Below, piece after piece: positions 5,552 to 10,203 of a stretch of DNA of 11,494 nucleotides. The number at the start of each line of letters is the position of its first letter. Within the stretch, counting starts at the first letter, position 1. Made by a program: the position numbers and the translations under genes. The stretch is from contig QMWA01000034.1 of assembly GCA_003661385.1 (NCBI GenBank), positions 1 through 11,494 on the forward strand, given 5' to 3'. Under the pieces are notes generated by a model. The model made no database searches, was not told the origin of the DNA, and saw nothing but the letters and a program-made list of their open reading frames with translations. This DNA is from Thermoproteota archaeon. GTDB taxonomy: Archaea; Korarchaeota; Korarchaeia; B14-G2.

Positions 5552-5571
5552 AAGCTTCCACTGGGCTCCCA

Positions 5572-5675
5572 GCGGGCACCGGGGGAGCTGGGGCAACCCG
5601 GCTGAGAGGGCGGCTAGCGCGCCGCCGACCCCTTGAACCTGATCCGGGTAATGCCGGCGTAGGGAGCGTGCCCGC
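5572..5675 (+). ncRNA. TPP riboswitch (THI element) aptamer
   Basis: The conserved core is complete: gctgagaggg (5601-5610), acccc-ttgaacctgat (5628-5643), gggtaatgccggcg (5646-5659) and tagggag (5660-5666). P1 is 8 bp (gcgggcac 5572-5579 with gtgcccgc 5668-5675). P2 is GGGG (within 5581-5585) with CCCC 5629-5632. P3 is 5587-5592 with 5597-5602 and is closed by a GCAA tetraloop. The optional P3a is ggcggc 5609-5614 with gccgcc 5621-5626. P4 and P5 are 5638-5640/5661-5663 and 5644-5647/5654-5657. It binds thiamin pyrophosphate. A transporter of the predicted HMP-uptake type follows directly, so TPP should lower its expression. Confidence 0.97.
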
Positions 5676-5699
5676 GGCACCTCCTTACCCGCACCTCGG

Positions 5700-5727: not shown

Positions 5728-6993
5728 ATGCCCGATAGAGGAAGGTCCTGGATTAGAGCTCCACCTGAGTGGGGGGTTGAGCCAGTCCCCAAGGAGGCAA
5801 GGATTCTAAGAGGCATAGACCTCTTCGTACTGTGGTCAAGTCTCGGCGTAGGCATCCTAGTGCTACAGGCTGGAGCGCTAATGATCCCGTCACTCACCTT
5901 AAAGCAGGCTTTAGCAGTATCTCTCATAGGCTCCATCATCGGGAGCATGCTGCTAGCTGCAGCTGGAGTCATAGGAGCCAGGCACGGTGTGCCCACGATG
6001 GTCTCTCTGCGCCCGGTCTTCGGCAAGTCAGGTTCATACATCGCTACAGCCCTGAATGTGCTCCAGCTAGTAGGCTGGACAGCCTTCGAGCTTAAAGTGA
6101 TGGCTGAGGCAGCTGCTATGGTAGCTGGAGGAGCCAAGCTGACGATAGCATGGCTAATAGCCTTCTCAGCCTTCGTAGCACTGCTAGCAATAGGAGGCCC
6201 ACTAGCTGTAGTAAGGCAGTGGCTCGAGAAGTTCGCCATATGGCTAGTCTACATCTCCACAGCCTGGATAACCTACCAGGTTCTAAAGGCTCCAGCATGG
6301 GCTATAGAAGGAGGCCAAGGAGGCATGCCATGGCCCCTAGCCCTAGACCTCGTGATAGCAATGCCGATCTCGTGGATGCCTCTGATATCAGACTACAACA
6401 GGTTCAGCATGAAGCCCTCCTCCGGCTTCGCTGGCACGCTGCTGGGCTATACAGCAGCCAACACGTGGTTCTATGCCCTGGGCGCAGCTCTAGCTGCTCT
6501 AGCAGGAGAGGAGTTCGTAGCAGCCTCAATACTCCAGCTATACATGGGCACGCTAGCCCTCATAGCAATTCTAGTCGACGAAACAGACAACGCGTTCGCA
6601 GACGTCTACTCGTCAGCAGTCTCGATACAGAACATACTACCCAAGCTAAGGCAGTGGAAGCTCGTCCTAGCAGTCACAGTAATATCAGCAGTGCTAGCCT
6701 ACACCCTCCCCCTAGCAGAATACGAGTGGTTCCTCCTCATGATAGGAGCAACCTTCGTCCCGCTGTTTGGCACAACGCTCTCAGAGTACTTCATAGTGAG
6801 AAGAGGCCAGGTAGAGCTAGACGAGTTCTACGAGAAAGCTCCACGTGTAGCCTGGAGGTCAATAGTGTCATGGGCAGCAGGGCTAGCAACATACTTCCTA
6901 CTGGTAAAGTACATGCCAAACCTAGGAGCAAGCCTGCCCTCGTTGGCAGTCTCAGCAGCTCTTCAAGCTGCACTGGGCAAAGCTAGGAAATAG
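5728..6993 (+). CDS. cytX: NCS1-family transporter, putative hydroxymethylpyrimidine transporter CytX
   Basis: This 421-residue inner-membrane permease has about 12 hydrophobic segments. The N-terminal PPEWGVEPVP and the following LRGIDLFVLWSSLGVGILVL are typical of CytX, a cytosine-permease relative predicted to import HMP for thiamin salvage. Internal NCS1 features include PISWMPLISDYNRF (residues 213-226) and DETDNAFADVYSS (284-296). ATG 5728 was chosen because a strong GGAGGGG lies just upstream. The open frame extends back to GTG 5668, but that codon is inside the riboswitch P1 helix and its peptide is unlike the family. Control by the upstream TPP riboswitch independently supports the thiamin-related substrate. 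The stop codon abuts the inverted-repeat element at 6994. Cytosine or another nucleobase remains a possible substrate. Confidence 0.92.
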   Translation: MPDRGRSWIRAPPEWGVEPVPKEARILRGIDLFVLWSSLGVGILVLQAGALMIPSLTLKQALAVSLIGSIIGSMLLAAAGVIGARHGVPTMVSLRPVFGKSGSYIATALNVLQLVGWTAFELKVMAEAAAMVAGGAKLTIAWLIAFSAFVALLAIGGPLAVVRQWLEKFAIWLVYISTAWITYQVLKAPAWAIEGGQGGMPWPLALDLVIAMPISWMPLISDYNRFSMKPSSGFAGTLLGYTAANTWFYALGAALAALAGEEFVAASILQLYMGTLALIAILVDETDNAFADVYSSAVSIQNILPKLRQWKLVLAVTVISAVLAYTLPLAEYEWFLLMIGATFVPLFGTTLSEYFIVRRGQVELDEFYEKAPRVAWRSIVSWAAGLATYFLLVKYMPNLGASLPSLAVSAALQAALGKARK

Positions 6994-7133
6994 GGGCTGG
7001 CGTCGGAGCCTAGCATATAGGCCTCCCCAGGAGTCCTCAGACTCCTAGGGAGTACCCCTGAGCCCCTGAGCAGCCTGATAGGCTACCCTGAGATCAGCAG
7101 GAGCACCTATATGCTGGCTTACTCCGCCAGCCC
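6994..7133. repeat. 140-nt nested inverted-repeat element; candidate structured RNA or MITE
   Basis: GGGCTGGCG (6994-7002) pairs perfectly with CGCCAGCCC (7125-7133). After a symmetric 9-nt/9-nt internal loop, AGCATATAGG (7012-7021) pairs perfectly with CCTATATGCT (7106-7115). Enclosed is a hairpin of CTCCC/GGGAG plus AGGAGT/ACTCCT around a CCTCAG loop (7023-7052). There are also smaller hairpins at 7072-7084 (AGCC/GGCT) and perhaps 7087-7101 (CCTG/CAGG). CCCCTGAG occurs twice in tandem (7055-7070), and a CCCTGAG recurs at 7086-7092. Each outer arm can also fold on itself (GCTGG 7113-7117 with CCAGC 7127-7131), suggesting two conformations. It does not match tRNA, SRP RNA or RNase P RNA as I know them. 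On the plus strand it is the 3' UTR of cytX, with T-runs following at 7157-7167. On the minus strand a TATA-like GCTAAAATG (7163-7155) sits 25 bp before the outer arm. The strand is therefore undecided. Confidence 0.6.
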
Positions 7134-7181
7134 GCCACCTGCTTTCTTGCCATGCATTTTAGCTTTTCCCATTAAATAGTA

Positions 7182-7217: not shown

Positions 7218-7886
7218 GTGTCCCTCTTGAAGGATATCGAAGAAGACCTTGACATACTCGCCAGCAAGCTACACCCCAGCCCAGGCACGTGGGCAGCCCA
7301 CCAGCTTGAGAGGGTCATCAGCAAGCTAAAAGATATGCATAGGAGAAAGCTCCTAAAAAGCAACCACAGCATAATGGAAGCCATATGCGCATGGCACTTA
7401 GCCACCCAAGGATATGAGGTAGATGTCGAGTACAAGCTAGGCGAAAGCCTAGTCTGCGACGTATACGCAGCAAGAGACGGAGAAACCCTGATAGTTGAGG
7501 TTGAAACCGGATACGTCCCACCGGAAAATGCCCTAGACCCAATAGCATACAGGTACACGAGGATAGCAGCAAAGATAGCAAGATACAGCAAGCACGCCCA
7601 CACATTTGCCCTAGCCACACCACCATACCACATCCTGCAGATACCTCCAGTCTTAGCCAAGCCTCCAGAGCAAAGAAGCCTCCAAGAGCTTCAAAGGCTA
7701 AAAGCCCTATGCGACAACTACTACAAGAACCCACCAATATCGCTAGAAGAGCTCAAGCAAGCAAAGCTAACCCACGTCTATATCGTAAACGTTGACTCCA
7801 CGCAGGTTCAAAGAATGGAAGCCGTAGAGTACATCAGGCAAATAGAGAAATCCCATCTCGCAGTAAGACCACCCCCCCAACTCTAA
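7218..7886 (+). CDS. Crenarchaeal hypothetical protein with PD-(D/E)XK nuclease-like core
   Basis: This soluble protein has 222 residues. Residues 50-100 resemble the restriction-endonuclease-like core: E54 in a helix (SIMEAICAWHL), then a strand with D81 (LVCDVYAA), a turn, and a strand LIVEVETGY with E94 and E96. In canonical members the last motif is ExK; here the lysine position is Glu96, so either catalysis is altered or the fold has another use. The following segment, TGYVPPENALDP then a helix RIAAKIARYS, looks strongly constrained and is, as far as I recall, shared by crenarchaeal homologues. The C-terminal 60 residues are helical with a VYIVN strand. Start GTG 7218 fits the strong TATA box; TTG 7227 is an alternative. 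It stands alone, with no operon partner. Nuclease activity is inference only. Confidence 0.72.
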   Translation: MSLLKDIEEDLDILASKLHPSPGTWAAHQLERVISKLKDMHRRKLLKSNHSIMEAICAWHLATQGYEVDVEYKLGESLVCDVYAARDGETLIVEVETGYVPPENALDPIAYRYTRIAAKIARYSKHAHTFALATPPYHILQIPPVLAKPPEQRSLQELQRLKALCDNYYKNPPISLEELKQAKLTHVYIVNVDSTQVQRMEAVEYIRQIEKSHLAVRPPPQL

Positions 7887-8190
7887 ACAAAAGCGCAGCC
7901 CTATAGCACGCCTCTCAAATCCAGTCTAGACAGCTGGCAGCCATCTTACACCACAAAATCAAAGCCAGAGCTACCGGTGCAGCTATAGCTGCCACAACCT
8001 CAAAGACAATTACCCTTCTCCAGCCGCACCTACACACCAGCATCCGGGCTCGCTTATTTCGGCTCGAGGCTATCTTAGGCTCCTTAAGGGGCGGGCCATA
8101 GTCCTCAGCGGTAGCTAGCCTCCTCAGCAGCCTCTAAGCTCTCAATCCCGAGAGCAGCCGGGGCCTCATCGAGGGGTTCTGCTATGGGCG
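7887..8190. other. Intergenic gap between convergent genes
   Basis: These 304 bp separate the 3' ends of the PD-(D/E)XK-like gene and the prolidase gene. Apart from the possible small minus-strand ORF at 7915-8043 I see no tRNA, repeat array or long hairpin. Confidence 0.5.
7915..8043 (-). CDS. Possible 42-residue single-span membrane protein
   Basis: ATG 8043 begins a 42-residue frame with a cysteine-rich basic start (MLVCRCGWRR), one hydrophobic segment of about 20 residues (VVAAIAAPVALALILW) and a short Cys-containing tail, ending at TGA 7917-7915. The same frame is open upstream to about 8138 without a standard start codon, and that part also looks coding-like (AEDYGPPLKEPK). It lies downstream of the prolidase gene on the same strand. 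A TATA-like cctaagata is centred about 32 bp upstream of the ATG. No Shine-Dalgarno is visible and I know no homologue. The Ala-Ile-Ala codons create a 14-bp palindrome at 7979-7992 by composition. It may be chance. Confidence 0.28.
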   Translation of the reverse strand: MLVCRCGWRRVIVFEVVAAIAAPVALALILWCKMAASCLDWI

Positions 8191-9333: not shown

Positions 9334-10203
9334 ATGGCCATGAGGGCTTCGATATCGCCTATAGGTGTGATCAGGTCTCCATTCAAGCGTGTGGAGGATG
9401 TGCCTTGGGACTACAGCCAGGTTGAGGGGGAGATACACATCTACCCGGAGTACAGGGATGGTCTTAGAGACCTAGATGGCTTCTCGCATGTAATAGTCCT
9501 GTGGCTGTTCCACTTGGCTAGAGGCGAGAGCCTGCTGGTTAAGCCTCTCTATGACAGCGGGGTCAGGGGTGTGTTTGCTACCAGGCACCCGAATAGGCCT
9601 AACAGGATAGCTTTGACTGTGATGGAGCTTCTCGCTGTCAGGGAGTCCTCGCTGAGGGTGAGAGGCGTTGATGCAGTTGACGGCTCTCCTGTAGTAGACA
9701 TAAAGCCATACACCTTCAAGGACAGGGTTGCTTTCTTGAGGCTAGGCTGGCTTGCGAGGGTTTTCTCAAGGAGGGCTGATGAAAGCGCCCAGCTCCACAG
9801 GCTTGTGTCGCTTGCAGCTGAAGCAATGAAGGCTGCTTACGCCCCCTACTCCAAGTTCAGGGTTGGTGCTGCGGTCCTGGCGTCTAGCGGTGCAGTCTAC
9901 ACAGGCTGTAACATAGAGAACGCATCCTATGGCCTCACCGTATGCGCTGAGAGGGTTGCAGTCTTCAAGGCTATCTCGGAGGGTGAGCGAGGGATCAGGG
10001 CTGTAGCTGTCGTAACAGAGGCTGAGAAGCCTACACCACCATGTGGAGCATGCAGGCAGGTCATCTACGAGCACGGCCCGAGCGCTGTCGTTGTCATGGC
10101 CAACACCAGGGGAGACATGGAGGTAGCCAGCATAAGAGACCTCCTTCCCAAGGCCTTCAGCAGCTCTGACCTCAGTAGCAGGGCATCTGCTAAACCTTTA
10201 TAG
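9334..10203 (+). CDS. trmO-cdd: TrmO-cytidine deaminase fusion protein
   Basis: One uninterrupted 289-residue chain holds two enzymes. Residues 5-127 are a TrmO/TsaA (UPF0066) domain: IGVIRSPFK (10-18), GEIHIYPEYRDGLRDLDGFSH (32-52), GVFATRHPNRPN (79-90) and VRGVDAVDGSPVVDIKPY (109-126). TrmO is the SAM-dependent N6-methyltransferase of t6A37 in tRNA. Residues 154-285 are a full-length cytidine deaminase with YAPYSKFRVGAA (169-180), substrate residues N193 and E195 (CNIEN), zinc ligands C204, C237 and C240, proton-shuttle E206 (CAERV, PPCGACRQV), and a normal AFSSSDL end. A linker of about 25 residues joins them. Start ATG 9334 fits the shared TATA box; ATG 9340 is also possible. An in-frame GTG at 9805 could yield a free deaminase. 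Its links to the divergent prolidase and the following membrane gene are unclear. Confidence 0.95.
   Translation: MAMRASISPIGVIRSPFKRVEDVPWDYSQVEGEIHIYPEYRDGLRDLDGFSHVIVLWLFHLARGESLLVKPLYDSGVRGVFATRHPNRPNRIALTVMELLAVRESSLRVRGVDAVDGSPVVDIKPYTFKDRVAFLRLGWLARVFSRRADESAQLHRLVSLAAEAMKAAYAPYSKFRVGAAVLASSGAVYTGCNIENASYGLTVCAERVAVFKAISEGERGIRAVAVVTEAEKPTPPCGACRQVIYEHGPSAVVVMANTRGDMEVASIRDLLPKAFSSSDLSSRASAKPL
10195..10203 (+). promoter_or_regulatory. TATA box overlapping the stop codon of the fusion gene
   Basis: CCTTTATAG is centred about 25 bp before 10225 and 35 bp before ATG 10235. It would start the membrane protein-winged helix transcript independently of the fusion gene. Confidence 0.6.

Follow-up and report, generated by a model that had tools for sequence, protein, structure and literature searches.

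Our analysis indicates that the 140 nucleotides located directly behind the cytX gene (positions 6994-7133 of the window, the whole stretch of 11,494 nucleotides analysed) constitute a predicted stand-alone gene for a non-coding RNA of about 140 nt, encoded by the minus strand and arranged tail-to-tail with cytX. We assign a probability of about 0.68 to this reading. The stability of the minus-strand fold, its rank within the genome, and a promoter match placed as in tRNA genes led us to regard the element as an independently transcribed ncRNA gene. The window is one contig of an archaeal assembly of 1.74 Mb (91% complete), whose source, a heat-loving archaeon, is the sole member of its family.

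The predicted transcript, running from 7133 to 6994, adopts a Y shape. Its ends are joined by a closing helix of 9 bp, in which the 5' strand, GGGCUGGCG, occupies positions 7125-7133, and the 3' strand, CGCCAGCCC, identified by both inverted-repeat analysis and folding, occupies positions 6994-7002; the fold and the TATA spacing place the putative transcription start at or near 7133. Both perfect helices noticed in the sequence-only reading, this one and another of 10 bp (AGCATATAGG with CCTATATGCT), are present, and position 6994 is indeed the first base after the cytX stop codon. The symmetric 9x9 internal loop described there was not recovered, as it is mostly zipped in the predicted folds (GAGCC/GGCUU on the plus strand and AGCC/GGCU on the minus strand), with a small internal loop remaining. 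Inside the closing stem, two arms are predicted to give rise to a three-way junction: arm A (7055-7105, boundaries approximate), with the inner 9-bp hairpin GGGUAGCCU/AGGCUGCUC, and arm B (7023-7052), a 13-bp hairpin CUCCCUAGGAGUC/GACUCCUGGGGAG with one G-U pair and the loop UGAG. A longer inverted repeat extending into cytX was considered and rejected, because the matches in the flanks do not line up with the stem and are probably due to chance.

The minus-strand fold, a long closing stem with two arms and 59 pairs in total, has a computed energy of -96.2 kcal/mol (z -8.0), and that of the plus strand -76.4 kcal/mol (z -5.75). It had been proposed that such folding is far beyond chance, and this was confirmed for both strands: none of 200 dinucleotide shuffles was as stable on either of them. 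Among 37,430 windows, each 140 nt long, sampled from both strands of 20 contigs of the same genome (377 kb, rRNA included), none reached the stability of the minus-strand fold; the most stable of these background windows (-87.9 kcal/mol) lies within 16S/23S rRNA. When modelled at 80 C, the minus-strand RNA still remained folded (-30.3 kcal/mol), and its ensemble diversity was low (3.7). The G+C content of the element is 62%, compared with 50.6% in the genome sample, and structured RNAs of Pyrococcus abyssi were likewise reported to be G+C-rich (PMC3124441).

The plus strand folds well too, as any inverted repeat must. The minus fold contains 8 G-U pairs, however, and the plus fold only 1. Since a G-U pair on one strand is an A-C mismatch on the other, the fold looks as if it were maintained as an RNA of the minus strand. 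This strand bias survives composition-matched shuffling, as demonstrated by the z values of -8.0 and -5.75. A G-U asymmetry this large would arise in a neutral palindrome with a chance of about 4% according to our own arithmetic (a simple sign test), which makes the strand argument modest when taken alone. As modelled, the minus strand would clearly make the better RNA of the two.

Further evidence comes from the region preceding the element on this strand. A promoter matrix of 15 bases, trained on the sequences preceding 16 tRNA genes of the same genome, found its best site in the vicinity at about 7168-7154 of the minus strand. This sequence, GAAAAGCTAAAATGC, the putative BRE and TATA core promoter of the predicted RNA, scores 12.4, as compared with 9.0-17.8 for the tRNA promoters, and a score this high is reached by only 3.3e-5 of the positions in the genome sample. 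The end of the site lies 20 nt ahead of position 7133, and for most tRNA promoters the corresponding distance to the tRNA is 19-23 nt; we calculate the chance of encountering such a promoter within a span of seven positions at about 2e-4. Its position and context agree with the pattern of archaeal start sites, in which TATA falls between -30 and -20, an A-rich BRE about 5 bp upstream of it, an A-rich segment around -10, a pyrimidine at -1 and a purine at +1 (PMC5316973); in the element, the TATA box spans -29 to -22 and is directly preceded by a BRE rich in A, with A residues near -10, a C at -1 and a G at +1. An own BRE/TATA promoter at the correct spacing, by which an independently transcribed archaeal ncRNA may be recognised, is therefore found here. 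No other minus-strand gene follows this promoter, and thus the element appears to be its natural product. Within the same genome sample, strong promoter sites preceding strongly folded RNA belong mostly to tRNA genes. The 3' flank of the element on the minus strand, CTATTTCCTAGCTTTG, would make a weak terminator; the tRNA genes of this genome are similarly devoid of long T runs. A partial look-alike of the promoter motif is present in the last cytX codons, on the other strand (p 0.0045); promoter-like motifs can arise out of coding sequence, and this one is probably a product of chance.

The T-rich stretch TTTTAGCTTTTCC (7157-7171, plus strand), whose reverse complement contains the promoter of the predicted RNA gene, could also terminate cytX. 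This gene (5728-6993, plus strand) encodes a putative transporter of the vitamin precursor hydroxymethylpyrimidine (TIGR02358, E 1e-90; 304.8 bits, with the cut-off at 309.85; Pfam PF02133) and is preceded by a TPP riboswitch (5571-5683, plus strand; Rfam RF00059, 67.3 bits). It might be supposed that the element is a structured 3' untranslated region of the cytX mRNA, read from the plus strand, which protects the end of the message or aids its termination at the T-rich stretch, in cooperation with the riboswitch at the opposite end. Such a role would be in line with the start of the element on the very base that follows the stop codon, with the z value of the plus fold and with the T-rich stretch downstream. 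However, the plus fold is the weaker one and carries A-C mismatches where the minus fold has G-U pairs. Moreover, a synteny comparison revealed no such element after cytX in relatives, where another reading frame, by eye thiD in most cases, begins almost immediately behind the gene. We regard this possibility as rather unlikely. The sequence-only reading had offered an RNA gene on either strand, a cytX 3' untranslated region and a MITE; the RNA gene is the best of these three, with the minus strand selected by the evidence, the MITE was not supported, and the untranslated region is a weaker proposal, as it accounts neither for the minus-strand promoter nor for the strand bias of the fold.

Searches for relatives of the element returned nothing beyond the element itself. 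DNA matches in its own genome and in 60 relatives were of chance level only (14-49 nt), and a covariance model of the minus fold (R1), applied to 26 genomes of the class and to 297 genomes overall, recovered only the element, no homologue being detected in the 296 other genomes. These results, together with its absence after the cytX genes of relatives, suggest that it is an orphan, belonging to a lineage of which no close relatives have been sequenced. Searches of phage, plasmid and viral collections found no relatives either. The occurrence of the element in this lineage, while it is missing after cytX in relatives, would also fit a DNA palindrome, either the solitary relic of a MITE-like or mobile element or a site forming a cruciform, which folds only as DNA, and so would its 28-nt terminal inverted repeats, which are imperfect (79% complementary). 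We consider this explanation unlikely. There is a single copy in the 91% complete assembly, which, along with the lack of matches in the phage, plasmid and viral collections, argues against a MITE; no direct repeat that could represent a target-site duplication is seen by eye around 6994 and 7133; and the G-U strand bias as well as the tRNA-grade promoter point to RNA.

The earlier statement that the element matches no known RNA class holds true for Rfam 15, in which nothing matched at gathering score or, within the element, up to E 10. Models of archaeal RNase P RNA (RF00373) and SRP RNA (RF01857) do not match at this locus, and the copies of this genome are located elsewhere (G000:C20:3619-3903 and G000:C25:13172-13481, respectively); no tRNA, i.e. 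a cloverleaf with a T arm, was detected in the element by ARAGORN. Recurrent CTGA motifs had been taken as a hint of kink-turn or box D-like protein binding. By eye, the main internal loop contains no standard kink-turn, and no C/D layout is seen. A box C/D guide RNA was not supported, as the ends of the element form the 9-bp helix, where neither box C nor box D is found by eye. A divergent H/ACA-type guide RNA, with the 9-bp helix as its lower stem and the small internal loop as a pocket below an upper stem, would resemble the stem, internal loop and stem outline of archaeal H/ACA RNAs. Nevertheless, the flank 3' of the lower stem, CCCCTATTTCC, contains no ANA box, a kink-turn was not found by eye, and the top is branched into two arms rather than one. 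None of the pocket patterns tried has a matching site in 23S rRNA or the 3' end of 16S rRNA, and the element has no complementarity of at least 9 nt to these sequences. We find an H/ACA identity extremely improbable.

If real, the predicted RNA, which comes from a lineage sampled only poorly, would combine a very stable structure and a tRNA-grade promoter with the lack of any known family, and it would thus add a new class of RNA to be searched for. The prediction of its strand and ends is precise enough for simple transcript mapping. To our knowledge, few archaeal non-coding RNAs other than guide and housekeeping RNAs are understood. The sRk RNAs, intergenic non-coding RNAs of the hyperthermophile P. 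abyssi (PMC3124441), are comparable to the element in being small, structured, G+C-rich and intergenic, and in having their own BRE/TATA promoter; on the other hand, no relative in sequence or structure was found for the element, and it is known from sequence rather than from experiment.

We infer transcription, both ends, a protein partner and a function of the predicted RNA in the following way. RNA polymerase would be recruited by the BRE/TATA box (about 7170-7155) and would start at about 7133. The resulting RNA of about 140 nt would immediately adopt the shape of a Y, very stable to heat and with the 5' end sealed to the 3' end, and transcription would stop near the cytX stop codon. Such a molecule would most likely act as a folded object, that is, as a protein-binding structural RNA, and not as a linear antisense. 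An effect on cytX is also possible, because both transcripts would be fully complementary in the region just after this gene; read-through from cytX could then be limited, or its 3' end affected, either by the convergence of the two transcription units or by base pairing of the RNA with the 3' end of cytX. Closed RNA structures pair slowly, though, and we therefore rank this effect second to action through shape.

A separate problem is the relation of the predicted RNA to its divergent neighbour, an uncharacterised gene at 7218-7886 of the plus strand. No Pfam match was obtained for this gene, whose homologues are found in 15 genomes of archaea, some related and some distant. The motif E...D...EVETG, recognised by eye, suggests that its product may be a PD-(D/E)XK-like nuclease; a structure model was of low confidence (mean pLDDT 48.6) and was not used. 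Eight genomes from a related genus (L171-L178, about 1501-1622) carry an undescribed three-hairpin RNA of about 122 nt (CGGGAAAGGGG...CCCCCCCGAAAG) as a single copy 3' of the homologues of this gene, on the opposite strand. It is preceded, about 20 nt upstream, by the conserved promoter GAAGGTTTATTAG, shows changes on both sides in 11 of its 36 predicted pairs, and has no Rfam match where tested. A shorter relative of about 93 nt is located at the corresponding position in four further genomes (L145-L148). This RNA is similar to the element in the distance of its promoter, in having several hairpins, and in lying near the 7218-7886 homologue on the strand opposite to it. Their sequences and shapes are different, however, and the 122-nt RNA lies 3' of the gene, whereas the element lies 5' of it. 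As the covariance models of the two (R1 and R2) do not detect each other, they should be regarded as two different RNAs. The presence in both lineages of a structured, independently promoted RNA near this gene and opposite to it in strand raises the idea that the element is this lineage's version of an RNA working with the 7218-7886 protein, which diverged beyond recognition. We see this as highly unlikely; if true, it would mean a previously unknown archaeal RNA-protein system.

Elsewhere in the window, an intergenic stretch between gene 7218-7886 and an M24 peptidase gene (8100-8190) is moderately structured on the minus strand (z about -3.3) and includes the motifs GATGAGG and CTGAGG. One reading frame at 9334-10203 of the plus strand comprises domains of a TrmO-like tRNA methyltransferase and of a cytidine deaminase, which is an unusual fusion. 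Finally, ARAGORN reported a tRNA-Pyl on the minus strand of L166:5150-5243; its anticodon loop, by eye CTTCTAA, suggests that it is more likely a tRNA-Arg(UCU) whose D-arm region carries an insertion.
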